Source of the DNA: Ignavibacteriae bacterium HGW-Ignavibacteriae-4
GTDB taxonomy: Bacteria; Bacteroidota; Ignavibacteria; Kapaibacteriales; UBA2268
NCBI GenBank assembly: GCA_002839765.1
Contig: PGYR01000026.1
Span: 1-62,859 of the forward strand
Direction: 5' to 3'
Length of the DNA: 62,859 bases
Position numbers and translations under genes: made by a program. This document shows positions 9,504 to 23,727 of the stretch, in pieces. The notes beneath the pieces are model-generated. The model did no database searches and was not told the origin of the DNA. It saw only the letters and a program-made list of their open reading frames with translations. The first letter of the stretch is position 1. Every line of letters begins with the position of its first letter.

Positions 9504-12500
9504 TTATTCTTTCACGAATCGCTTATATATATTATCATTTATTTTGATAAAGTAAATACCTGTTTGTAGGTAATCTATATTTATACTTTGTTCCATTTGT
9601 GGAGCTAGATTATTATTAGACAATATAGCTTTTCCATTCAGATCTAATATCAATATCGAATTAATTCCTTTGTCATAGATTATGTTCAACTCATCTTTCG
9701 CTGGGTTGGGGTAGATGCTGAGGTTAAAACCAATTCCAAAATCATTGACACCAGATATAGCACTTACGTTTTCCATGGCAGGAGTAGGAGTCATAACTCT
9801 AAAGTCTCCTGTTCCATTAGGGTATCTACCGTAAGATATATCAGTTTCTTGAGCACCAAAACTTACTGAATCTATGATTGATAATTCTGCATTAGTTAAG
9901 TATAAAGACTCACCACTTGCAGATAATTTAAGATCTCCATGATAATCTTCTTGCTCCATTTCTTTGTCTGCCCATACTATTATATACTCATTCGGTTGTA
10001 TTACAGTACCCGCTGGGAATGCAAACAATGTAAAGTCTGTTATATCATCTGATAGCGTATAGCCTGCCAAATCAACAGCTACATTTCCTTTGTTGTATAT
10101 TTCTATCCAATCGTCATAGCCACCATCTTGGTCTGTATTTATTGTAGTATTAGAAGCTAATAGCTCATTGATTACGATCTCACTTGCTGCAGTTGCTATT
10201 GTATTCATAGCACCCGGAGTAGGAGTCATAGCTCTAAATTCTCCTGTACCATTAAGGTATCTACCATAAGAAATATCAGTTTCTTGAGCACCAAAGCTAA
10301 CTGAATCTATGATTGACAATTCAGCATTTGTTAGGTATAGAGACTCACCACTAGCTGATAGTTTAAGATTTGCATGATATCCTTCTTGCTCCATTTCCTT
10401 GTCAGCCCATACTATTATATACTCATTCGGTTGAATAATAGTACCTGCTGGGAATGCAAACAATGTAAAGTCTGTTATATCATCTGATAGCGTATAGCCT
10501 TCCAAATTAACAGCAACACTTCCCTTATTATATATTTCTATCCAATCATCATTTCCGCCATCTTGGTCAACATTAGTAGTTTCGTTTGATGCTAAGAACT
10601 CATTGATTACAATTTCAACTGGTACAGTTTCAATTGAATTCATTGCACCTGGAGTAGGAGTCATTGTTCTAAAATCACCTGTTCCATTAGGGTATCTACC
10701 GTTAGAAATATCAGTTTCCTGAGCACCAAAGCTAACCGAATCTATGATTGTTAATTCTGCATTAGTAAGGTAAATAGATTCACCACTTGCAGATAATTTA
10801 AGATCCGCGTGATAGCCATCTTGTTCCATTTCCTTGTCAGCCCATACTATTATATACTCATTCGGTTGAATAGTAGTACCCGCTGGGAATGCGAATAAAG
10901 AAAAGTCTGTTTTATCATCTGTAAGTCTGTAACCTTCTAGGTTAATAGCTACAGTCCCTTTGTTATATATTTCAATCCAATCATCGTAACCACCATCTTG
11001 GTCAACATTAGTAGTTTCGTTAGATGCTAAGAACTCATTTATTACTAATTCACTAGCTGCTGTTTCTATAATATTTGCTGCACCTGGAGTAGGAGTCATA
11101 GCTCTAAAGTCTCCAGTTCCATTAGGATATCTACCAAAAGACACATCCGTTACTTGAGTACCAAAGCTAACAGAATCTATGATTGACAAAGTAGCATTTG
11201 TTAGGTATATAGTCTCGCCACTTGCTGATAATTTGAGGTTAGCATGATATCCTTCTTGTTCTGGTTCTTTATCTGCCCATACTATTATATACTCATTCGG
11301 CTGGATTACTGTACCTGCTGGGAATGCAAATAATGTAAAGTCTGTGATATCATCTGTAAGAGTATAGCCTTCTAGATTAATAGCTTCTGTACCTTTGTTA
11401 TATAATTCTACCCAATCGTCATAGCCACCATCTTGGTCTGTGTTTGTAGCATCGTTTGAAGCTAGGAATTCATTGATAACTATATTTCCTTCAGCCGTTT
11501 CTACTGTAGAAGCTAAAGAGTAAAACTCATGTTCTGCATTAGTTGGAGAGAATTTTCCGATTGTACTATTCTCAGCGTATATATAGTATTCCATAATCGC
11601 AGAAGACATAGTAACTTCAGCGCCATATACATCATCATTTGCTCCGCCATCATTATGTTTACCATCGTCATACATTGCAATTTTGTTGAATGGAGCTCTG
11701 ATTTGTGTTCTAAATCTTAAAAAGACATTATCTTCATTTACAACTTTAGCTGTAATAAATAATTTCTCCCCTACTTTAGGTAGAGTAGTCGAAGAATTAA
11801 CATTAGTAATTGTAGGTTCAGTAGTAGAAAAATCACTTAGTCCCATAAGGTATGAGTATCTTCCATTCATCAAAGTAGTGATACCAGGAGTAGAACTAAC
11901 CGGACCAGGGCCACCACCGCCAGATATATCTGCAGTCAGATTTGATATAAAGTTGTTATAAGTGTAGAATTTATTTTGATCTGCTTGAACGTGCGAATCA
12001 ATGATTTTTTGTAAAGCTAGACCATCGGTATAGTAAGGTCCATTATTAGTAAAATTCTCAGTTAAGAATGTTTTGCAATGGGCTAAATACATTTTCTTAT
12101 AAGTTGGGATACTCAATAATTGGCTAATCAAAGGATAAGACGCTTCTGTAGAGTGTAGCAAATGGTCTAATCGTTGCTTTGAAGCTGTGTTAGTCAGATT
12201 AGTCGAACCAGACATAGAGAACGTTCCAAATGATTCGTTCAAATCCCAGACAACAGGTAAGAATCTACCATTATCGTCTCTGTATAAATAGTAATTCTGA
12301 GCGAATCCACCAATATAACTATCTAGGTTTACTAGCATATTGTCGAAAGCTAGCATCCAAAGAGCTCTATCTACATCAAGGATTTTCTCAATATCAGCAA
12401 CGTTATTTTTCAGAGTGTCGCATAAATCAATTAGTTCGTCCCATCCAGTGTCCGATTTCAGCTCGTAAGCACTATAATATTGAGAACTATCATTGCCTTT

Positions 12501-13085
12501 GTAAACTAAATTTGGAAGATTCGTAGTGCCTGGACCAGCGCCATCAGGAGGATTACATTTCACAAAAGTATTCGATTTAGAACCAAATCTATTATCAACA
12601 AACTTCTTTGAAACGGATTCTGAGTTCGAATATAAACCAATTAGCTTATCGTTAACATATACATTAGCGAAGTTCGAAAGAGGAGCATCCATATAATTTC
12701 TTAATACTTTGTAACTAAGAACTTCTCTTATAAATGATGGGTCTTTCGCGGCATTACTAAGTTTTATATCAGTATAGTTCTCGTATTTCTGATCTTTGTA
12801 AGTATCTAGTTCTATGTGAAAAGGGTTCTTAGTTTGATTTGCACTATATGTGCTATTACCTTTGTATTTGACTCCGACACTATCGAAGAACACACCATTT
12901 ATAGTTACGCTTTGTGCCATTATGTAGTCTTCAGCGCCGGCTTTCTGAGCATCTAATAGAGCATCCCAATTGCTCTCTGCAAACACTATTTTAATTGTCT
13001 GTACTTTATCTATATTATAGAAATCTTGTGCCATTATTAGGCTAGATGATATTAGAAAAGTGAGTATAGTAAATATTTTTTTCAT
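9504..13085 (-). CDS. Secreted CotH-kinase-like protein with four lamin-tail domains, type IX cargo
   Basis: This 1193-residue protein has a signal peptide (MKKIFTILTFLISSSLIMA). Residues ~25-420 form a CotH domain: VGVKYKGNSTYS, NPFHIELD, DIKLSNAAKDPSFIREVLSY, and a metal-site-like VVWDLNESFG near 285. Residues ~420-530 look like a beta-sandwich linker. Four tandem lamin-tail domains of about 144 residues start near 535, 680, 824 and 969. Each begins VINE(F/L)LASN, has DDW(I/V)E(I/L)YNKG and FAFPAGT(V/I/T)IQPNEYIIVWADKE, and ends near MTPTPG. The last ~75 residues are a type A sorting domain. CotH proteins are atypical protein kinases in spore coats; a surface role here is inference. The LTD repeats are also close at DNA level, which suggests recent internal duplication. 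Confidence 0.9.
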   Translation of the reverse strand: MKKIFTILTFLISSSLIMAQDFYNIDKVQTIKIVFAESNWDALLDAQKAGAEDYIMAQSVTINGVFFDSVGVKYKGNSTYSANQTKNPFHIELDTYKDQKYENYTDIKLSNAAKDPSFIREVLSYKVLRNYMDAPLSNFANVYVNDKLIGLYSNSESVSKKFVDNRFGSKSNTFVKCNPPDGAGPGTTNLPNLVYKGNDSSQYYSAYELKSDTGWDELIDLCDTLKNNVADIEKILDVDRALWMLAFDNMLVNLDSYIGGFAQNYYLYRDDNGRFLPVVWDLNESFGTFSMSGSTNLTNTASKQRLDHLLHSTEASYPLISQLLSIPTYKKMYLAHCKTFLTENFTNNGPYYTDGLALQKIIDSHVQADQNKFYTYNNFISNLTADISGGGGPGPVSSTPGITTLMNGRYSYLMGLSDFSTTEPTITNVNSSTTLPKVGEKLFITAKVVNEDNVFLRFRTQIRAPFNKIAMYDDGKHNDGGANDDVYGAEVTMSSAIMEYYIYAENSTIGKFSPTNAEHEFYSLASTVETAEGNIVINEFLASNDATNTDQDGGYDDWVELYNKGTEAINLEGYTLTDDITDFTLFAFPAGTVIQPNEYIIVWADKEPEQEGYHANLKLSASGETIYLTNATLSIIDSVSFGTQVTDVSFGRYPNGTGDFRAMTPTPGAANIIETAASELVINEFLASNETTNVDQDGGYDDWIEIYNKGTVAINLEGYRLTDDKTDFSLFAFPAGTTIQPNEYIIVWADKEMEQDGYHADLKLSASGESIYLTNAELTIIDSVSFGAQETDISNGRYPNGTGDFRTMTPTPGAMNSIETVPVEIVINEFLASNETTNVDQDGGNDDWIEIYNKGSVAVNLEGYTLSDDITDFTLFAFPAGTIIQPNEYIIVWADKEMEQEGYHANLKLSASGESLYLTNAELSIIDSVSFGAQETDISYGRYLNGTGEFRAMTPTPGAMNTIATAASEIVINELLASNTTINTDQDGGYDDWIEIYNKGNVAVDLAGYTLSDDITDFTLFAFPAGTVIQPNEYIIVWADKEMEQEDYHGDLKLSASGESLYLTNAELSIIDSVSFGAQETDISYGRYPNGTGDFRVMTPTPAMENVSAISGVNDFGIGFNLSIYPNPAKDELNIIYDKGINSILILDLNGKAILSNNNLAPQMEQSINIDYLQTGIYFIKINDNIYKRFVKE
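9780..11480 (-). repeat. Four tandem ~432-bp lamin-tail coding repeats
   Basis: Within the CotH gene the segments beginning near 11470, 11038, 10606 and 10168 (read on the minus strand) are repeated at DNA level as well as protein level. Examples are the recurrent blocks CCCATACTATTATATACTCA and GCTGGGAATGC. Boundaries are approximate. Confidence 0.8.
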
Positions 13086-15690: not shown

Positions 15691-16224
15691 CTATTTATTA
15701 ATTGAATACAGTTTTGCTGGCTGATTGTTCTCAATAATGTCTTTTTCATATTGGAAATTCAGTTTTTCAAGTACATTAATAGATCCAATATTTTCTGGTA
15801 GTACCATTGCTACTAGTCGCTTTAGCATCAAATCCTCAAACCCAAATTTTACAATTGCCCTAGCCGATTCAGTTGCTATGCCTTTTCCCCAGTATTCCTT
15901 CATAAACCGATAGCCTAGGTCAACTTCATCCAAATCTTTTAGGTACTTTAGTCCTGTGAATCCAATGAACTTTCCCTCGCTTTTCAGCTCTACTGCAAGC
16001 CGACCGTAGCCATACTTCTCATAGTCTCCGAACACATTTTCTTTTATCCGCCTTTCTATTTCGGCCTTAGATACAACGCCACCATCTGCCGTATATTTGC
16101 TCACCTCAGCATCAAGGTTCATAGCATAAGAAGGCTCTATGTCTTCAACTGTAAATGGTCGAATCAATAATCTTTCAGTTTCGATAATCAGATTCGGATA
16201 CTTATTCTTTGTTTTATTTTCCAT
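15691..16224 (-). CDS. GNAT acetyltransferase, RimJ/RimL type
   Basis: This 177-residue protein has the RimJ/RimL layout: ETERLLIRPFTVEDIEPSY at the N-terminus, FIGFTGLKYL, then VDLGYRFMKEYWGKGIATES (acetyl-CoA loop) and LVAMVLPENIGSINVLEKLNF. It acetylates an unknown amino group. The frame is open to a GTG at 16242. I choose ATG 16224, since GGGAGAGGAAA sits just upstream at the right distance and the conserved domain begins soon after. The lipocalin-like lipoprotein gene follows at 6 bp. Confidence 0.88.
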   Translation of the reverse strand: MENKTKNKYPNLIIETERLLIRPFTVEDIEPSYAMNLDAEVSKYTADGGVVSKAEIERRIKENVFGDYEKYGYGRLAVELKSEGKFIGFTGLKYLKDLDEVDLGYRFMKEYWGKGIATESARAIVKFGFEDLMLKRLVAMVLPENIGSINVLEKLNFQYEKDIIENNQPAKLYSINK

Positions 16225-16243
16225 ACTATTTTCCTCTCCCACA
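16225..16243 (-). promoter_or_regulatory. Strong ribosome binding site deciding the GNAT start
   Basis: On the minus strand GTGGGAGAGGAAAATAGT directly precedes ATG 16224. The GGGAGAGGAAA purine run is well placed for ATG 16224 and too late for the in-frame GTG at 16242. Confidence 0.6.
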
Positions 16244-16329
16244 AATATACGGATAGTTTTCTACTTTTGAATATTGTGAGGAATTAGGTAGATTGGTGAT
16301 TAACTTACTTCAAAGATAATTAGAATAAA

Positions 16330-16911
16330 ATGCCCATTAACAACGAAAATACATTTTACCCATCAAGTAGAGAGGAATGGCGTCAGTGGTTAGAAGAAAA
16401 CCACATAAATGAAGAATCTGTATGGTTAGTACAATACAAAGTAAAATCGAATAAGAAATCCATCTCTTGGAGTGAATCAGTTGATGAAGCCCTTTGCTTT
16501 GGGTGGATAGATAGTGTAAAAAGAACAATTGACGATGAGAGCTACAAGCAATATTACAGCAAACGAAAACCAAATAGCACTTGGTCGAAAATCAATAAGG
16601 ACAAAGTCGCACTGTTCACCGAGCAAGGACTAATGGCAGAAGCGGGGCTACTCACGATAGAAGTAGCTAAGAAAAATGGCTCTTGGACTATACTAGATGA
16701 AGTAGAAGAACTCATAGTCCCCACCGACCTAGAAGAAGCATTCGACAAAGAAGTGAACTCAAAAGACTACTATTTATCTTTGAGTAAATCCACTCAGAAA
16801 ATGCTCTTGGCATGGATAGTCCTAGCCAAACGACCAGAGACCAGGCAAAAACGAATAGATGAAATAGCAACTCAAGCAGCAAAGCAGAAGCTACCTAAAC
16901 ATATTGGGTAG
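16330..16911 (+). CDS. YdeI/OmpD-associated family protein
   Basis: This 193-residue protein has the YdeI-type layout: FYPSSREEWRQWLEENH, ESVWLVQYKVKSNKKSISW, DEALCFGWIDSVKRTID and YSKRKPNSTWSKINK, then a C-terminal OmdA-like helical part (SKSTQKMLLAWIVLAKRPETRQKRI) ending in KQKLPKHIG. The family is widespread; a role in cell-envelope or stress physiology has been suggested, but the activity is not established. It is divergent from the GNAT gene and followed by a DUF559-associated element. Confidence 0.88.
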   Translation: MPINNENTFYPSSREEWRQWLEENHINEESVWLVQYKVKSNKKSISWSESVDEALCFGWIDSVKRTIDDESYKQYYSKRKPNSTWSKINKDKVALFTEQGLMAEAGLLTIEVAKKNGSWTILDEVEELIVPTDLEEAFDKEVNSKDYYLSLSKSTQKMLLAWIVLAKRPETRQKRIDEIATQAAKQKLPKHIG

Positions 16912-16971
16912 GGCGAGAGAAATTGTTTGTATGTTGAGCGGAATTGGGTATTTTTGGATTGAAGGAAATGC

Positions 16972-17082
16972 AACACCCCCCTGAATCCCCACTGAATGGG
17001 GGACTTGAAAGTGCTATAATATAATAACTTAGTTTGTTCTGCACGAATTATCCCCCCTAGAGGGGGGACTAAGGGGGGTGTT
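16972..17082. repeat. 111-bp inverted-repeat element, left arm of A
   Basis: The ends are AACACCCCCCT (16972-16982) and AGGGGGGTGTT (17072-17082), which are perfect inverses. Inside are a left C-run/G-run hairpin (ATCCCCACTGAATGGGGGAC) and a right hairpin (CCCCCC TAGA GGGGGG), separated by ~45 bp of AT-rich DNA. Confidence 0.8.
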
Positions 17083-17108
17083 AAGAATATAAATGAAATT
17101 AAAAAATT

Positions 17109-17606
17109 ATGAAAAGAAAAATAATACCATATAACCCCAAACTAAAGGCATTTGCTAGAAAACTAAGAAACGAAAGTACTAGATCAGAAGTAACACTTTG
17201 GATTCAGATAAAAAGTAAAGTAATTAGTAAATATGGTTTTCTAAGACAGAAGCCATTAGGCAATTATATTGTTGACTTCTATTGCTACGAATTAAATCTA
17301 GTAATGGAGTTAGATGGTTTGACACATTCTTGGGAAAGAATTAAAGAGAAAGATTATGATAAAGAATTATACCTAAATGGGCTAGGATTAAATGTACTGA
17401 GGTTTGCTGATTCTGCCATTCTCAGCAATATGGATTTTGTTTTAGATTATATCTTTAAATATATAAAATGTTATGAAATCAATGATTTTACATATTTTAA
17501 TCGAGATGATTTAATAAAAAACCCGTTAAATAAGTTGACTCGATTGAAAACTGAAAATAGAAATGTTCCATTTTATTGGGATGATTCAGGAAGAACACCC
17601 CCCTAA
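17109..17606 (+). CDS. DUF559 (Vsr-like) endonuclease-domain protein, copy A
   Basis: This 165-residue protein carries a DUF559 domain at residues ~1-118, a member of the PD-(D/E)XK fold near very-short-patch-repair nucleases. Candidate active-site residues are visible: E27 (RSEVTLW), D56 (NYIVDFYC) and E67-x-D69 (VMELDGLTH), plus a LRQKPLGNYIVDF core. The tail (~120-165) ends NVPFYWDDSGRTPP. The final TPP and stop come from the terminal repeat of the flanking element. It is ~64% identical by eye to copy B (21316). The gene lies 26 bp inside the left element. The nuclease fold is family knowledge; its target and role in moving the element are inference. Confidence 0.85.
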   Translation: MKRKIIPYNPKLKAFARKLRNESTRSEVTLWIQIKSKVISKYGFLRQKPLGNYIVDFYCYELNLVMELDGLTHSWERIKEKDYDKELYLNGLGLNVLRFADSAILSNMDFVLDYIFKYIKCYEINDFTYFNRDDLIKNPLNKLTRLKTENRNVPFYWDDSGRTPP

Positions 17607-17694
17607 ATCCCCCCTGAATGGGGGACTTTAAAAACGTTATAATTCATAGTTTAATCAACTGAAAAAAGCGGCATCTACACGTGACGGGGAATTG
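17594..17694. repeat. Inverted-repeat element, right arm of A (right half decayed)
   Basis: It begins with AACACCCCCCT (17594-17604) and the hairpin CCCCCC TGAAT GGGGG. It continues with ACGTTATAATTCATAG as in the 21.8-kb and 22.6-kb copies, then degenerates (AAGCGGCATCTACACGTGAC). The right terminal repeat is not recognisable. Confidence 0.65.
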
Positions 17695-17734
17695 AAGAAT
17701 ATAAATGAAATTACAACTAAACAATAAGTATAAA

Positions 17735-19003
17735 ATGAAAAAATCAGCTCAGCTATTTTTATTAATCATTATCTCTACACAGGTAGTTATTTCACAAGCC
17801 TATATAAATAAGCAATCACGACATAGATTTGCACAGTTGAGTATGGGTGTAGATGTAGAAACAAACTATGGAGGTGCCACTAAGTATCTCAACGAAAATG
17901 GAGGAATACAAAACTTAGATCTGCCTAGCACTTATATACCTAGGTTTCTAATAGGAGGAACTCACTTCTGGGGTCATGCTGATTTTTATATCGCTATTCC
18001 TTTGCTAAGAAGTCAGATAGAAGAAAACAATCAAATCATTCAATATCTAAGAGGGGTTGAAACGGTTTTCAAATATTACCCTTGGAGAATAGAAAATGAT
18101 AGGGTAACACCTTACATTGGCTTTTCTGTAGCCCCATTCTACTTTGAGCAAACTAATCAGAATCTAATTTACGGTAATGGTCCAGAACTAAACCATACGA
18201 ATTTTCCATTGTTGGGTGGTATTACCTATAATAGTGGAAATCATTTATTCGAATTTGGTGTAGCTTGGAATTATACCAACAAACAAGATTACTACATAAC
18301 TCGTACTGAAAAAGAAAGCATTATTACTCCACCCATCTATATGAATCTGTCATATAGATATCTACTCGAAACTACTCTAAGTGCTGAGCAAGAATGGGAG
18401 TCTGGCAGAACCCAAGAAATCACAGAAAAACTTGCAAATCAAGGAAAATTAGACGGGTTCTACCTGGGTGCTGGTCTCTCATCAGCTTTTTGGCTTGGTA
18501 AGAATAGCTATAATGAAACCGAAAAACCATACATAGAAGGCTATACGACTTCTATTATGCCTGATTTTAGTCTTGGGTACTATTTTCATAATTCAGATAT
18601 AAATATAGCTTTGGGATATCGAGATTATGGAACTAGCACTAATACTTACGGTGCAGCTCAATCACTGAATAGACAATCAGTAGTACTAGAACTAACAAAA
18701 TATCTTCTTGACTATCATGGCTTCGCACCATTTTTGGGCCCTTCAATAAGCTATGAAAACTTAAGCTTTGATGAGTCTTATGAAGGGCAGAAGCTTAATG
18801 ACATATCAGATGATAGAATAGGATATGGCTTAACTTTCGGGTGGGATATTCGGCCCAATAGAATCCAATCATGGTTGCTAAGAACAAACCTGAGATGGTT
18901 CCCAAGCATGGATGTCGATATAAATAACAAAAGCTCAGTTTCATTCAACAATCTCGAATTCAACTTTATACAACTGATAATTTATCCAGATAGGATGTTC
19001 TAG
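17735..19003 (+). CDS. Outer-membrane beta-barrel-like protein, unknown
   Basis: This is a 422-residue protein from ATG 17735 (MKKSAQLFLLIIISTQVVISQ, a clear signal peptide). The upstream in-frame ATG 17705 would add ten polar residues before the signal. The mature part is rich in alternating aromatic and polar strands (FWGHADFYIAIPLL, YRYLLETTLSAEQEW, LSLGYYFHNSDINIALGYRDYG) and ends with aromatic FIQLIIYPDRMF, as in outer-membrane barrels. Two similar halves may be present (residues ~25-210 and ~235-422, each opening with a glycine-rich strand). No family was recognised. Codons 17705-17713 lie in the 19-bp repeat flanking element A, so that element may have inserted just upstream. Confidence 0.65.
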   Translation: MKKSAQLFLLIIISTQVVISQAYINKQSRHRFAQLSMGVDVETNYGGATKYLNENGGIQNLDLPSTYIPRFLIGGTHFWGHADFYIAIPLLRSQIEENNQIIQYLRGVETVFKYYPWRIENDRVTPYIGFSVAPFYFEQTNQNLIYGNGPELNHTNFPLLGGITYNSGNHLFEFGVAWNYTNKQDYYITRTEKESIITPPIYMNLSYRYLLETTLSAEQEWESGRTQEITEKLANQGKLDGFYLGAGLSSAFWLGKNSYNETEKPYIEGYTTSIMPDFSLGYYFHNSDINIALGYRDYGTSTNTYGAAQSLNRQSVVLELTKYLLDYHGFAPFLGPSISYENLSFDESYEGQKLNDISDDRIGYGLTFGWDIRPNRIQSWLLRTNLRWFPSMDVDINNKSSVSFNNLEFNFIQLIIYPDRMF

Positions 19004-19044
19004 TAGGGATATTTAGGGCTTTTTGGTTGTAAATATATATCAGG

Positions 19045-19094
19045 AACACCCCCCTCTATATATCCCTCATGAAGCAGGGACTAAGGGGGCTGTT
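19045..19094. repeat. Miniature 50-bp version of the inverted-repeat element
   Basis: The ends are AACACCCCCCT (19045-19055) and AGGGGGCTGTT (19084-19094), enclosing one hairpin, TCCCT-CATGAAGC-AGGGA, followed by CTA. It looks like an internally deleted copy of the 111-bp element. It lies in the convergent gap between the barrel protein and the TPR gene. Confidence 0.65.
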
Positions 19095-19126
19095 ATTGTA
19101 AGCAACTGAAACTCAATTAATTTGCG

Positions 19127-20167
19127 TTATTCAAGTTCAAAATAATTTTTAAAGAATTTATAGTAATCTCTCACTTTATCACGATTATCTATAACCCATT
19201 GTCCCGATTCAGGTTCTTTAACTGAACAAGCAATATGTACTAATGTTTCAAAATGACCTTTTTCTCTTACTTCTAAAAAGTATTTGATATAGTAGTCGTA
19301 TAGAAACTGTTCAACTTCTAAATCAAAATTATCATCATCTAGCTCTTCAAACGTTTGAACTATAGTTTCTACATAGTCCTTTAGTCTTTCTGAAGGTAAT
19401 AGTCCTACTTCACTAGAATCTATATCAATAGCTTTAAGAGATATTAGAAAATCTATAGTTTTAAATTTTTGAGAGCTATTATCTGTTGTAAATAATGTTA
19501 CATTTATTGCAGATGAACTTTCTCTATCGACACCTATATTTATCGAAGTTAAAAGGTTCTGGTATGCCATTACCTTCCTGTCCTCAGCAATTTGGGGTAG
19601 CTGAAGGAAAAATAGTGCCGAAAGTATAGACTTTGCTTTTTGCTTTCCTTCATAATTTATTATCCCTAAATAGTAATGACTACTAGAAAATAGAAGATTT
19701 TTTTTTGCGGCATTTGCTAAGCTAATGGCTGCTAATGAATCCATATCCAATCTCATGTACGTAATACCTATATTAAAATGTAGCATGAAAAAGTCTGTTT
19801 CATCAATACCCTCCCTATATTCTTCTATTGCTTCCAGTGGTTTACCTAAATTATCCAAGGCATTACCTTTCAGCATATATCCCATAGCTTCCATTTCATC
19901 TCTTGTCGCATTCTCAATCAATAAGTCTCCCATTTCTAAAGATTTCTCATGATTACCCAATACGGAATATGTCATTCCTTTCTCATAATATACAAATTCT
20001 AATAACTCGCCTGTTTCTAGTACTTTATTATAAAACTTTAGGGCAGACTCATAGTTCCCTTTATCATGCTCATTTATACCCATTTTAAGATAATCCTCTG
20101 CAGAGGGTTCCGATAGTAGGAATGAAAAACTAGAAATAAATAAGTACACAAATATTAATATTCTCAT
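19127..20167 (-). CDS. TPR-repeat exported protein
   Basis: This 346-residue protein has a signal peptide (MRILIFVYLFISSFSFLLSEP). Residues ~22-185 contain about five tetratricopeptide repeats: EDYLKMGINEHDKGNYESALKFYNKVLE, FVYYEKGMTYSVLGNHEKSLEMGD, AMGYMLKGNALDNLGKPLEAIEEY and MLHFNIGITYMRLDMDSLAAISLANAA. The C-terminal half is charged and unassigned. TPRs act as protein-binding scaffolds, so a periplasmic interaction role is likely, but the partner is unknown. A coiled or alpha-helical tail follows (FEELDDDNFDLEVEQFLYDY). It is followed on its downstream side by the miniature repeat at 19045-19094. Confidence 0.75.
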   Translation of the reverse strand: MRILIFVYLFISSFSFLLSEPSAEDYLKMGINEHDKGNYESALKFYNKVLETGELLEFVYYEKGMTYSVLGNHEKSLEMGDLLIENATRDEMEAMGYMLKGNALDNLGKPLEAIEEYREGIDETDFFMLHFNIGITYMRLDMDSLAAISLANAAKKNLLFSSSHYYLGIINYEGKQKAKSILSALFFLQLPQIAEDRKVMAYQNLLTSINIGVDRESSSAINVTLFTTDNSSQKFKTIDFLISLKAIDIDSSEVGLLPSERLKDYVETIVQTFEELDDDNFDLEVEQFLYDYYIKYFLEVREKGHFETLVHIACSVKEPESGQWVIDNRDKVRDYYKFFKNYFELE

Positions 20168-20290
20168 AGCAAGATCCTCATTTTATAATTTTGTTAGATA
20201 ATTACAATCCCTAATAATTGAATATAATAAAAATATTCTAATCTATATTAACAGAATTTTAATCTGATTATAGTTATTCTAATCTACCTA

Positions 20291-20346
20291 CAAAAAAACC
20301 CTACACATTATGAATGGTCCTTAACTTAGATCTTATATGTGGTTAG
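20291..20346 (-). repeat. Terminator-like 3' tail of the DHFR-like gene, shared with mdh
   Basis: The stretch CAAAAAAACCCTACACATTA through ATCTTATATGTGGTTAG is visibly similar over ~50 bp to 22739-22790, the terminator region after mdh. Here the stem (ACCC...GGTCC) is degenerate, so termination is doubtful. Confidence 0.4.
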
Positions 20347-20357
20347 TCCCGTTGATA

Positions 20358-20978
20358 CTATTTCTTACTTAATTTATATCTCATGTGTGTAGTCAGATTT
20401 GACTCTATTACTTCTACAATTTGAATATCATATTTATCATTATCAATACCTTCAAATAGTCGAATCCCCCTTCCTAGAAAGACAGGGGAAATGTGAATGA
20501 AAAATTCATCTATAAGTCCTGCATTAAGAAATTGCTGTATAGTATTCGCACCACCTTGTATTCTTATATCCTTACCATTTGCTGATTTCTTTGCTTTTTC
20601 CAATGCACTATGAATGCCGTCATTGATGAAATAAAAAGTTGTTGATCCTTTTTGAACCCAGGGTTCTCGTTTCTCGTGGGTAAGGACATAAACATCTGCC
20701 TCGTATAAATCTTCTGGCCAAACGACTTCTCCCTCATCAAACATTCGTTTTCCCATAATGAACGCGCCTGTTCTTTCGATTGTCTCTCTTATATATTTGC
20801 CATCTGGTCCGTCTTCTTTGCCTCCTTCCATACCTAAGTATTCCCAGAAAGCTTTTTGATTAAACATCCAGTTGTGTATTTTGGGAGAAACCCCGCCCAT
20901 TGGGTTGCTTGGACTTCTGTTTTCGCCAGCGAAATAACCGTCAAGTGATATTCCACTATCAAAGATAATCTTGCTCAT
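20358..20978 (-). CDS. Dihydrofolate-reductase-family / RibD C-terminal-like reductase
   Basis: This 206-residue protein has the RibD-C/DHFR-like fold: IIFDSGISLDGYFAGENRSP at the N-terminus, RTGAFIMGKRMFDEGE, DVYVLTHEKREPW, DIRIQGGANTIQQFLNAGLIDEFFIHISPVFLGRG near 138-172, and RLFEG. This is the standard signature of the NAD(P)H-dependent 'dihydrofolate reductase family' proteins, whose substrates are mostly unknown. It is not the classical folA. No operon partner is seen. The start at ATG 20978 is preceded by a TTATCAGGAAATT ribosome site. Confidence 0.9.
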   Translation of the reverse strand: MSKIIFDSGISLDGYFAGENRSPSNPMGGVSPKIHNWMFNQKAFWEYLGMEGGKEDGPDGKYIRETIERTGAFIMGKRMFDEGEVVWPEDLYEADVYVLTHEKREPWVQKGSTTFYFINDGIHSALEKAKKSANGKDIRIQGGANTIQQFLNAGLIDEFFIHISPVFLGRGIRLFEGIDNDKYDIQIVEVIESNLTTHMRYKLSKK

Positions 20979-21180
20979 AATTTCCTGATAATTTGTTGAT
21001 TTTAAACTTGATTAATTTCAAATATAATAAATTAGTTTTATTGAATTTGATTTAGTTTAAATTCTAATTTGAGGCATCTTCAATATGGTTTGTTTTTTTT
21101 ACTTTTGGGGATTGATTGGAATTTGGTAGATTGGATTGCTTAAAAATAAGAAATGAAGTGATGCAATTAATGGGGTAAGT
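20979..21180. other. AT-rich gap upstream of element B
   Basis: Together with the left arm of element B this gives 337 bp without a gene. The 202 bp before the element are AT-rich, with a T8 run, and have no recognisable gene or hairpin. The promoter of the DHFR-like gene must lie here. Confidence 0.5.
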
Positions 21181-21291
21181 AACACCACCCTAAATCCCCC
21201 CTTGAAGGGGGGACTTGAAAACGTAATATACCAGTTAAAGGTGGACTTGAAAAGTAACATCCCCCCTTGAGGGGGGACTAAGGGGGGTGTT
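21181..21291. repeat. 111-bp inverted-repeat element, left arm of B
   Basis: The ends are AACACCACCCT (21181-21191) and AGGGGGGTGTT (21281-21291). The internal hairpins are CCCCCC TTGAA GGGGGG and CCCCCC TTGA GGGGGG. It is the same length as the left arm of A. Confidence 0.8.
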
Positions 21292-21315
21292 AAAGTAAAC
21301 ATTGAAACTTTAAAA

Positions 21316-21813
21316 TTGAAAAGAAAAATTGTACCATATAACCCTATACTAAAAGAACTAGCCAGAAAGCTAAGAAATGAAAGTACCAAATCTGAAGTAT
21401 TGCTTTGGCTTCAAATTAAAGGTAAAGCTCTTAGTAAATATGCTTTTCTAAGACAAAAACCATTAGGTAATTATATAGTTGATTTCTATTGCTATGAATT
21501 AAATCTTGCAATTGAGTTAGATGGTTTGACGCATGGATGGGAAAAAACAACCCAAAAAGATTTTGAAAAAGAGTTGTTTTTGAATGGGATTGGACTTAAT
21601 GTTTTGAGATTCTCAGATGAAGCTGCATTAAGTAATATGGGTTTTGTGATAGAGTATATTATAAAATATATAGAATGCTATGAACTAAACAATTTTACAT
21701 ATTTTTGTCAAGATGATTTAATTGATAATCCTTTGAATAGATTAACCCGGTTTAATAGAGAAAATAGAAATGTTCCATTTTATTGGGATGACTCTCGGGT
21801 AACACCTCCCTAA
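21316..21813 (+). CDS. DUF559 (Vsr-like) endonuclease-domain protein, copy B
   Basis: This 165-residue homologue of copy A has the same candidate catalytic residues: E27 (KSEVLLW), D56 (NYIVDFYC) and E67-x-D69 (AIELDGLTH). The start is TTG at 21316, at the position where copy A has ATG, so expression may be weaker. The C-terminus ends PFYWDDSRVTPP, and again its last codons (ACA CCT CCC TAA) are the terminal repeat of the right arm. The conserved residues argue that both copies have been kept functional until recently. It starts 24 bp after the left arm. Confidence 0.85.
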   Translation: MKRKIVPYNPILKELARKLRNESTKSEVLLWLQIKGKALSKYAFLRQKPLGNYIVDFYCYELNLAIELDGLTHGWEKTTQKDFEKELFLNGIGLNVLRFSDEAALSNMGFVIEYIIKYIECYELNNFTYFCQDDLIDNPLNRLTRFNRENRNVPFYWDDSRVTPP

Positions 21814-21912
21814 ATCCCTCCTCAAGGAGGGACTTGAAGCCGTTATAATTCAATAAGATAATTGATTATAAAAGGGCTATCCCCACCTAGAGGGGGGACT
21901 AAGGGGGGTGTT
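21801..21912. repeat. 112-bp inverted-repeat element, right arm of B
   Basis: The ends are AACACCTCCCT (21801-21811) and AGGGGGGTGTT (21902-21912). The internal CCGTTATAATTCAATAAGAT and AATTGATTATAAAA stretch is shared with 22605-22716. Confidence 0.8.
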
Positions 21913-21936
21913 ACTAAAGTTAGGATTCAATTATAC

Positions 21937-22515
21937 TTAACAGATATTATCTGTCTCATCAAACTTCTTAAACCCATTAAAGATAGCGAGACACAGTTTT
22001 TTTGAGTGTTTTGAACTAAATGTGATTCTTCCTAATTTATCAGCAGAAGAAACAATAGCATTTCTTGTATTAATCAGTATAACTTCATTATCATAAATAA
22101 TTGTTACTACTTGATTAAACTTGAATGTGTTTTCGTATATCCCTCTATACATGTGCTTATTATCATACATTTTTTTGATACCTAATTCTTTAGAAATTTC
22201 TCTAACTCTCTCTCTATTCTTTTCATTTGATTTGCCAGTATAAATTGTATATAGCTTAAAAGAAGTCAAGTTTTTAAATAGGATAAAAATCCCAAGTATA
22301 GTAATAAGACCAACAACTAAATAAAATATGGTCATATCAGTAACGGACTCAGTATTAGGAGTAAGGAATAACAATCTATAGAAAGTTGATATAAGTGGAA
22401 TAAATAGAAAACCAGGAGTTGCAAATTCAAATAACCAGTCGTGTTTTTTAAAGGTTAGTATTTTTCTTCTCTTGCTTTTTTTAAAATCAATTTTATCTGA
22501 TAAGAGGTCTAACAT
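21937..22515 (-). CDS. Small membrane protein, unknown
   Basis: This is a 192-residue protein with no recognised family. A basic N-terminus (KSKRRKILTFKKHDW) is followed by two membrane helices (about 31-50 and 63-81, TDMTIFYLVVGLITILGIFIL) and a cytoplasmic C-terminal part with KEKNRERVREISKELGIKK and VTIIYDNEVILINTRNAIVSS. It is like small PH-like or YcxB-like domains in length, but this is weak. It lies between element B and a gene-free element copy. Confidence 0.6.
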   Translation of the reverse strand: MLDLLSDKIDFKKSKRRKILTFKKHDWLFEFATPGFLFIPLISTFYRLLFLTPNTESVTDMTIFYLVVGLITILGIFILFKNLTSFKLYTIYTGKSNEKNRERVREISKELGIKKMYDNKHMYRGIYENTFKFNQVVTIIYDNEVILINTRNAIVSSADKLGRITFSSKHSKKLCLAIFNGFKKFDETDNIC

Positions 22516-22604
22516 TATTTATAGGGCTCAATTTGAAAATAAAAGTTCATTAGTCTTAATACTTTAAACTTACTATAAATTACTAAATAAGTAAAATAAT
22601 ACTT

Positions 22605-22716
22605 TACACCCCCCTACCCCCCCCCTGAAGGGGGGACTTGAAACCGTTATAATTCAATAAGATAATTGATTATAAAAAGGGCTATCCCCCCTAGAGGGGG
22701 GACTATGGGGGGTGTT
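22605..22716. repeat. Gene-free 112-bp inverted-repeat element
   Basis: The ends are TACACCCCCCT (22605-22615) and TGGGGGGTGTT (22706-22716). The inside matches the right arm of B almost base for base (ACCGTTATAATTCAATAAGA, then GATTATAAAA and GGGCTATCCCC). No nuclease gene is attached, so it is a MITE-like copy. Confidence 0.8.
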
Positions 22717-22739
22717 AAAGTTAAAAGTTTTCTACCCAC

Positions 22740-22766
22740 AAAAAACCCCACACACTGTGCAGGGTT
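22740..22766 (-). terminator. Intrinsic terminator of mdh
   Basis: On the minus strand AACCC-TG-CACA-GTG-TGTG-GGGTT forms a stem with a 2-base bulge and is followed by TTTTTTG. It lies ~28 bp past the mdh stop. Confidence 0.65.
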
Positions 22767-22794
22767 CATAGTATAAATCTTATGTGCCTTTAGC

Positions 22795-23727
22795 TTATAG
22801 TACTGAGCTTAGGTCGCCGTTAGTGTTGCGAACTCCTTCAGCACTTTCTGCTAGCTTAGCTTTCTCTGCATCTGATAGAGAGATTTCTACGATTTTCTCG
22901 ATACCATTTTTACCAAGTACGCAAGGTACTCCGATACAAATATCGCTTAGTCCGTACTCGCCATCAAGCATAGCTGAGCAAGGGAACATTTTCTGTGCGT
23001 CTTGAGCTATTGCTCTAACTAACTCAGATACTGCTGCACCCGGTGCATACCAAGCGCTTGTGCCTAATAGTTTAGTTAGTGTAGCGCCACCAACTTTAGT
23101 GTCTTCTACTACCTGATCCATTCTATCAGCTGATAGGAACTCAGAAACAGGTACGCTATTTCTTACAGCTTTTTCTATCAATGGAACCATACCAGTATCG
23201 CTATGACCACCGATTACCATACCATCTACGTCAGATGCTGGGCACCCCAATGCTTCGCTCAATCTGTATTGGAATCTAGCACTGTCTAGTGCTCCACCCA
23301 TACCGATGATTCTGTTCTTAGGTAATCCAGTCGCTTTGTGTACTAGGTAAGTCATAGTATCCATAGGATTACTTACGACTATGATAATAACGTTCGGAGA
23401 TTCTTTGATTAGGTTTTCGCTCACAGATTTCACTATACCAGCGTTGATACCGATTAACTCTTCTCTAGTCATACCCGGCTTACGCGGGATACCGCTAGTG
23501 ATTACAGCTACGTCGCTACCTGCTGTTGCAGAGTAATCATTAGTGCTACCTGTTATCTTAGTATCAAATCCGTTCAGTGATGCCGTTTGCATCAAATCCA
23601 TTGCCTTACCTTCTGCAAAGCCTTCTTTGATATCAACTAATACTACTTCCGCAGCAAAATTTTTGATTGCGATGTACTCAGCACAACTAGCGCCTACTGC
23701 ACCTGCTCCTACTACTGTTACTTTCAT
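22795..23727 (-). CDS. mdh: Malate dehydrogenase
   Basis: This is a 310-residue LDH-like malate dehydrogenase that interconverts malate and oxaloacetate with NAD in the TCA cycle. VVGAGAVGASCAEY (5-18) is the NAD loop and D32 (VLVDIKEG) indicates NAD rather than NADP. R82 and R88 lie in the mobile loop (GIPRKPGMTREEL). N120 (VVSNPMD), D148/R151 (GGALDSARFQYRL) and catalytic H175 (VIGGHSDTGMVPL) are all present. It lies downstream of gltA on the same strand but has a terminator between, so each probably has its own promoter. Length is typical. Confidence 0.97.
   Translation of the reverse strand: MKVTVVGAGAVGASCAEYIAIKNFAAEVVLVDIKEGFAEGKAMDLMQTASLNGFDTKITGSTNDYSATAGSDVAVITSGIPRKPGMTREELIGINAGIVKSVSENLIKESPNVIIIVVSNPMDTMTYLVHKATGLPKNRIIGMGGALDSARFQYRLSEALGCPASDVDGMVIGGHSDTGMVPLIEKAVRNSVPVSEFLSADRMDQVVEDTKVGGATLTKLLGTSAWYAPGAAVSELVRAIAQDAQKMFPCSAMLDGEYGLSDICIGVPCVLGKNGIEKIVEISLSDAEKAKLAESAEGVRNTNGDLSSVL

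Follow-up and report, generated by a model that had tools for sequence, protein, structure and literature searches.

In the RAYT/REPIN systems (GTAG-tagged repetitive extragenic palindromes, REPs), a nuclease gene lies between cognate palindromes, the repeats form inverted dimers, solitary copies are found elsewhere, and copy number is higher where the gene is present. The units described here share these properties, the last as judged from the few genomes compared. They consist of a gene for a nuclease of the DUF559 family (PF04480) between palindromic elements, and they were studied starting from two copies in contig PGYR01000026.1 of Ignavibacteriae bacterium HGW-Ignavibacteriae-4. This contig, 62,859 nt in length and analysed as a whole, is referred to as the window; its genome is coded G000, related genomes G001–G003 and onward, and individual loci carry the prefix L. 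Unlike RAYT, the DUF559 enzyme has no HUH (Y1_Tnp) domain, and Y1_Tnp genes of the same genus have other, GTAG-like repeats. We propose, with a probability of about 65%, that a DUF559 gene and its two palindromic ends form one mobile unit of the homing type that spreads both itself and its ends. An earlier note on this DNA had drawn the analogy with RAYT/REP pairs; as a description of how the system may work the analogy is apt and is supported by the comparisons below, but by fold a homing endonuclease is the closer relative.

The EDxHD/Vsr-fold homing endonucleases, such as I-Bth0305I, match DUF559 in fold and sequence profile and have spread at the same site between lineages in common with it; the DUF559 units differ in their palindromic ends, in being translated in frame inside host proteins, and in that no intron or intein was found with them. 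With inteins the units share in-frame positions in conserved genes, a sporadic occurrence and alleles at the same site, whereas the DUF559 carriers scanned have no splicing domain. In the literature, the similarity of Escherichia coli YcjD to Vsr is already reported (PMC1189080), a DUF559 gene is assigned to the EDxHD homing endonuclease family (PMC9403480), and recombination hotspots of Legionella are said to contain a transposase plus DUF559 (PMC12308824).

Nucleases and flanking palindromes of the window

The two DUF559 genes, which the earlier note had located at 17109 and 21316, match the PF04480 profile with 100 and 94.5 bits (gathering cut-off 20.6) and are 79% identical to each other across a 300-nt stretch. 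Searches of Pfam and NCBIfam at an E-value of 1e-3 find DUF559 alone in the two proteins, and no HUH domain. The residues that had been singled out, E27, D56, E67 and D69, are indeed invariant in an alignment of 20 sequences, as are H73 and D82. The first four are kept in 53/53 in-frame or fused units of the kind described below, and H73 in 52. The ratio of nonsynonymous to synonymous substitution (dN/dS) is 0.04–0.11 in 6 of 11 DUF559 pairs, the other five being saturated at synonymous sites. The nuclease is evidently under purifying selection, with its predicted catalytic residues kept. An AlphaFold2 model of copy 1 (mean predicted local distance difference test score, pLDDT, of 74; poor from residue 128) matches the folds of 3hrl (NGO0050) and of I-Bth0305I (3r3p, E-value 1.3e-4); weaker, mixed matches come next, to mitoribosomal chains and PvuRts1I-type enzymes and then to Vsr at an E-value of 0.07. 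A sequence profile searched against the PDB finds only 3hrl and 3r3p at an E-value of 0.01 (3r3p, 1.1e-6).

The double-hairpin elements have AACACC at their start and GGTGTT at their end. Each gene had been placed between elements of about 111 bp; three of the four brackets are complete, and 3' of copy 1 only the left hairpin is left. The stop and the last codons of both genes come from the 3' element (RTPP-stop and VTPP-stop). The 11-mer AACACCCCCCT, with at most one mismatch, is found 11 times in the window against 0.42 expected, and 0/100 shuffles reach 11. Compensatory changes in the element stem occupy 8 cells, as many being seen in 0/500 shuffles; they are confined to 2 of the 6 stem pairs, a value that 264/500 shuffles reach too. 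In two of the three window-type subtypes the outer arm is a mirror of the inner stem arm over 7 nt; the third departs from this by one base. As the note had stated, the flanking genes are unrelated: the five neighbours (OmdA-like, an unassigned 432-aa protein, TPR, RibD_C and an unassigned 192-aa protein) have no family in common. Inspection by eye of the window copies and of the leucyl-tRNA synthetase sites discussed below revealed no target-site duplications.

DUF559 genes and flanking repeats in other genomes

The window's own genome and 60 relatives together supplied 58 unique standalone DUF559 genes for a comparison of flanks; 51 had usable flanks and in seven these were too short. A repeat was scored as common to both sides at a local score of at least 20 between the 5' and 3' flanks, with positions in the same loci as controls. 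The window and N-containing stretches were excluded from the controls, because the window's own tandem duplications inflated the controls' upper tail and a run of N was suspected too. The flanks had a repeat in common at 41/51 genes against 61/2160 controls (30/51 against 37/2160 at a score of 30). An independent GTDB sample, obtained with the 3hrl_A sequence as query, comprised 80 loci, mostly from Proteobacteria, of which six were dropped for short or N-filled flanks; here a flank repeat was in common at 40/74 loci against 23/876 controls (23 against 16 at a score of 30). C-rich/G-rich 9-mers stood on both sides of 43/80 loci and of 3/423 controls, the 9-mers having been picked after viewing 9 of the 80 loci. 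As judged from these flanks, the association of DUF559 with repeats is general.

The ends also follow the nuclease. Over 6552 pairs, end similarity is rank-correlated with DUF559 similarity (0.29), and 0/999 Mantel permutations were as high; none of the pairs has a common labelled host site, and same-genus pairs, some perhaps at orthologous loci, are included. The 126 units used for this test, for relatedness and for the residue survey include, of the window copies, only copy 1.

DUF559 units inside conserved genes

In a survey of the phylum, at least 88 of 218 genomes had a DUF559 match at an E-value of 1e-24. Many DUF559 domains, both in the relatives and in the phylum, lie within long open frames with translated repeats on either side, as seen by eye. 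Pfam and NCBIfam identify the in-frame hosts as leucyl-tRNA synthetase (LeuRS, at two sites), methionine synthase (MetH), RecG, a UvrD-type helicase, methylmalonyl-CoA mutase, HsdM, HsdR, type ISP and Eco57I/IIG-like enzymes; DUF559 stands at the N or C terminus of a coproporphyrinogen oxidase and of a glutamine-amidotransferase protein. Isoleucyl-tRNA synthetase (IleRS) of a Rickettsiales metagenome-assembled genome (MAG), HsdS of two Nitrospira MAGs and QueG were recognised as hosts by eye only. Loci L196–L198, which are low-scoring, and L007 resemble old fusions and were left out of the in-frame count. Several in-frame carriers are single-contig genomes, for which assembly error is therefore unlikely.

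For MetH and RecG, the family models align clearly before the insert and again after it. For HsdM, the PDB chain 3khk gives a strong match before the insert and a weak resumption after it (−1.3 and 4.9 bits), and roughly 140 residues of the insert have no counterpart in 3khk. No intein model was found in the LeuRS, MetH or RecG carriers at an E-value of 1e-3, and the in-frame carriers that were scanned contain DUF559 and no HUH or splicing domain. Since the units stay translatable, an insert inside a gene probably persists as an extra surface-loop domain and is not spliced out. The findings also suggest that a selfish nuclease can be an additional domain of enzymes as essential as LeuRS. The idea that insertion is specific to restriction-modification (R-M) genes was dropped once housekeeping hosts had appeared.

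Repeated occupation of a loop in LeuRS

In the genus of G250, LeuRS was found in 117/121 genomes and 50 loci were examined; because 20 of the 50 had been picked mainly for long frames, the share of loci with an insert should not be taken as a rate. The length of the loop that separates GKSVGA from the FTTRPDT-type motif was measured in 49 rows, with two genomes represented twice, and was 15 residues in 15 rows, 20–33 in 22 and 128–221 in 12. DUF559 is present in all 12 rows with the longest loop, and each of the 12 genomes concerned has one LeuRS locus at an E-value of 1e-60. In L237 (G280:C58), a LeuRS frame of 1386 residues carries two DUF559 units at two sites together with translated repeats.

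The argument for movement relies on two comparisons. The LeuRS of L207 is closest to those of L203 and L201 (0.958 and 0.955), both without DUF559, and its insert is closest to that of L231 (0.94), though the LeuRS of L231 is more distant; synonymous differences between L207 and L231 are 24/85 in the insert against 256/401 in LeuRS. L233 and L234 are LeuRS sisters (0.938), and the proportion of nonsynonymous differences (pN) is 0.378 between their inserts against 0.02–0.04 in the host gene; their ends differ as well. Sister genes thus hold unrelated units in one loop, and two units of 94% identity are found in LeuRS genes that are less closely related; the units therefore appear to have moved, and we read this as the repeated, horizontal occupation of one LeuRS site by DUF559 units. 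In these inserts the relatedness of DUF559 departs from that of the host, as would be expected of the mobile system that the note had suspected. The pair L200/L226 was set aside, the signal being strong by four-fold sites and modest by the Nei–Gojobori method.

Where units of different genera occupy one and the same site they are often mutual nearest relatives (RecG, MetH, HsdM and HsdR), LeuRS site A of L164 being an exception, and pairs of units in different hosts reach 77% identity. Empty sites, which the note had proposed to look for, are found at the protein level for LeuRS and, by uninterrupted models or chains, for HsdM, MetH and RecG; for the window copies none was found.

Several of the loops of 20–33 residues hold other short in-frame repeats. 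At L202–L249, from related species, the loop before FTTRPDT holds short in-frame repeats without DUF559, of the CAAGTTTCAAG, GTCCTTAGTCC and CCAACTTCCAAC types.

E. coli ycjD and known repeat families

Two surveys of very common bacterial palindromes, the CGTC-REPs (PMC3733652) and the BoxC/triplex motifs (PMC4666352), report no known mobility gene; DUF559 is now a candidate for both. Holder et al. (2015, PMC4666352) state that mobility activities near BoxC/triplex motifs were never found; in their counts one E. coli strain has 29 motifs, another a single one and Salmonella none. The CGTC-REPs are described without a dedicated transposase and with intragenic in-frame copies, and the terms 'duf' and 'DUF559' are absent from that paper (PMC3733652). 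A link of DUF559 to BoxC/triplex or CGTC-type repeats was not found in the open literature, subscription papers being mostly outside that scope.

The window repeats may resemble the BoxC/PIT/TM-ECO triplex motifs, with a C-rich stem, a C-rich/G-rich hairpin and, in two of the three subtypes, an exact mirror of the stem in a third arm, but lie outside the published TM-ECO sequence pattern. For the CGTC-tagged REPs, which include Neisseria dRS3 and Rickettsia RPE-4/6, a possible likeness is seen in the window's own genus, where CCCCGTC-stem-loop-stem-TCCA repeats stand, by eye, on both sides of DUF559 copies (the head and the tail are seen around C5:9465, C17:24404, L083 and L084), whereas the window elements have no CGTC head. 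The CGTC-repeat-bracketed genes of L083 (G002:C70) and L084 (G001:C407) are 99% identical to each other, and the sequence adjoining them is presumably a duplicated RHS-like repeat.

E. coli K-12 has a DUF559 gene, ycjD, which is flanked by sapF and fabI; a BoxC-type motif lies downstream of it. The locus (at least 80% covered) was found in 3362/5426 E. coli genomes. In a rank-spread sample of 60 of 5411 records, from which one 0.79-Mb record was dropped, and with BLAST places taken as motif copies, the median number of other motif places was 21 in 37 ycjD+ records against 9 in 22 ycjD− records (Mann–Whitney p 4e-10; uncorrected for lineage). The published motif was present in 27 and 11 copies in two whole ycjD+ records. 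Three ycjD-less genomes have an efflux operon at the locus and no simple empty site (far end checked in one).

It appears to us an even chance that the missing mobilisers of palindromes of the BoxC/triplex and CGTC types are, across bacteria, the DUF559 nucleases, and that these define a class of homing elements with their own translatable palindromic ends, in-frame invasion of conserved genes and retention in the finished enzyme without splicing. The K-12 copy makes the origin of the repeats and their instability from strain to strain approachable by gene deletion and cleavage experiments.

Repeats in the own genome and in close relatives

G000 (3.36 Mb in 110 contigs) has seven PF04480 matches, of which six are standalone copies and the seventh is a domain within a long protein. 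Four of the six standalone copies pass the flank-repeat score (both window copies and those on C1 and C15). Inspection by eye places the copies on C5 and C17 between palindromes with a CGTC head, and those on C15 and C1 between palindromes of other kinds.

Across the genome the 11-mer alone marks the elements poorly (27 one-mismatch matches against 18 for the reversed pattern, with all 6 exact matches in G000 falling within the window contig), and a covariance model of one repeat arm was therefore built. It has 27 matches in G000, 13 in G001, 3 in G002 and 1 in G003, a trend that is only suggestive because all 16 training sequences come from G000. The note had regarded repeats lying equally often away from the nuclease as speaking against a link between the two. 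Seven of the 27 matches directly flank both window genes and 20 flank neither, yet the bracketing of DUF559 genes is far above local controls. The ends of contigs C1, C100 and C107 of G000 lie within a few dozen bases of a window-type repeat; the repeats thus probably interrupt the assembly, and their counts are too low.

G001 has one DUF559 gene of the window lineage, 77% identical to copy 1; those of G002 and G003, three each compared, do not exceed 46% identity. The ortholog of copy 2 in G001 is on C221 (L099), between a RibD_C gene and mdh. At this locus about 835 bp of the window, including the 192-aa gene, correspond to 127 bp in G001, and the difference is bounded on either side by a position inside an element. 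The copy-1 neighbourhood has no match in G001–G003, G002 and G003 have mdh and no match to the RibD_C neighbour of copy 2, and none of the three genomes yielded an empty site, clean at the nucleotide level, for either window copy. Comparison of copy 1 with plasmid and phage records gave 36 and 2 matches, respectively, and no obvious vehicle. Among known defence systems only DpdF matched, at an E-value of about 1e-3.

Proposed mechanism and alternative explanations

In the proposed scheme, a Vsr-fold nuclease, related to the homing endonuclease I-Bth0305I, is encoded between palindromic ends, each made up of an outer C-rich arm and a C-rich/G-rich hairpin. The nuclease would recognise or cut DNA at its cognate ends or at a target site, and repair of the break would copy the unit (homing). 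Rarer jumps to new sites, together with a scattering of ends free of nuclease, would then give the solitary elements.

An alternative is that DUF559 is a Vsr-like nuclease serving the host in repair or restriction, and that the repeats multiply by themselves, through slippage, gene conversion or recombination between copies, with units persisting where they are tolerated. PMC12907096 describes a functional tie between Caulobacter VsrA, which has a DUF559 domain, and a cytosine methyltransferase; the window and G001 differ by an element-bounded stretch, and E. coli motif alleles by an internal deletion. Unrelated units at the same site in sister genes, host-incongruent units, in-frame units in unrelated housekeeping genes and ends that track the DUF559 lineage make this explanation unlikely. 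We regard as rather more doubtful a RAYT/IS200-like HUH transposase that acts in trans on the palindromes with DUF559 as passenger, even though the window repeats resemble REP dimers and G000 has two Y1_Tnp genes, one of them (C107:38078-38416) about 130 bp from a window-type repeat at a contig end. G001 has 13 repeat matches and a DUF559 unit with no Y1_Tnp match, the relative of the C107 gene in G002 is without the repeat, the Y1_Tnp genes in G000:C25 (L344) and G003:C13 (L345) lie, by eye, amid different, GTAG-like repeats of their own, and the in-frame carriers scanned have DUF559 and no HUH domain. Recruitment of DUF559 as a nuclease module of R-M enzymes, that is, domain fusion, was suggested by the long-frame hosts first seen in the relatives, 11 of 12 being R-M proteins; it has become very improbable with the finding of the same architecture in LeuRS, MetH, RecG and methylmalonyl-CoA mutase, of translated palindromic repeats flanking the domain, and of most LeuRS loci of the genus without DUF559. 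That the elements, being GC-rich hairpins in intergenic DNA, are ordinary terminators that lie near DUF559 genes by chance is scarcely credible in view of bracketing at 54–80% against 2.6–2.8% in local controls and of in-frame units whose ends are inside open reading frames.

Several observations weigh against the mobile, homing-type unit itself. In the flank-repeat score, 34/74 of the mostly proteobacterial loci and 10/51 of the standalone genes fail, among the long-frame cases 5/12 pass, and the C5 and C17 copies of G000, bracketed to the eye, fail. In LeuRS, one of the 12 inserts (L230) has lost its recognisable ends, and the excess of insert similarity between L200 and L226 is modest (48/102 against 242/400 by Nei–Gojobori). 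No base-exact empty site was found; the LeuRS units replace a few loop codons. That the same sites recur may be due to the tolerance of certain loops for an insert and not to the specificity of the nuclease. In E. coli, the motif at ycjD is on the 3' side only, the difference in motif count is uncorrected for lineage, and the two motif loci compared between strains showed an internal deletion scar and a replacement and no clean empty site.

Coordinates and further features of the window

Table 1. Positions in the window of the nuclease genes, palindromic elements and adjoining features.
Feature	Position	Strand	Size	Remarks
Double-hairpin palindromic element, 5' bracket of copy 1	16972..17082		111 bp	Complete
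DUF559 (PF04480) nuclease gene, copy 1	17109..17606	+	165 aa	PF04480 E-value 8.7e-29
Half element 3' of copy 1	17594..17631	+		Left hairpin kept, second decayed; overlaps gene end
Short single-hairpin element between both units	19045..19094			
Double-hairpin palindromic element, 5' bracket of copy 2	21181..21291		111 bp	Complete
DUF559 (PF04480) nuclease gene, copy 2	21316..21813	+	165 aa	TTG start; PF04480 E-value 4.4e-27
Double-hairpin palindromic element, 3' bracket of copy 2	21801..21912		112 bp	Complete
Gene between two elements	21937..22515	-	192 aa	No counterpart in otherwise matching G001 locus
Solitary, nuclease-free double-hairpin element	22605..22716		112 bp	Adjoins mdh

A 31-nt AT-rich stretch that follows the 5' element of copy 1 (17074-17104) recurs with 84% identity at 17686-17716, after the decayed 3' element. 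The elements at 17048-17082, 21257-21291, 21803-21899 and 22616-22716 give sub-threshold Rfam matches to the whalefall-1 RNA (RF01762), of at most 21.9 bits with a gathering cut-off of 37; this RNA family may include repeats of the kind of the window elements. No group I or group II intron family is among the Rfam matches to an E-value of 1 in the region 16000-23000. With their Y1_Tnp genes, the GTAG-like palindromes around L344 and L345 make up another repeat system that exists in parallel in the window's genus. Elsewhere in the window, a 1193-aa open reading frame at 9504-13085 contains four tandem repeats of 435 bp (9781-11385) that are 83–90% alike, and positions 1-2793 are a long tandem duplication with a period of 1896 bp and 73–75% identity.

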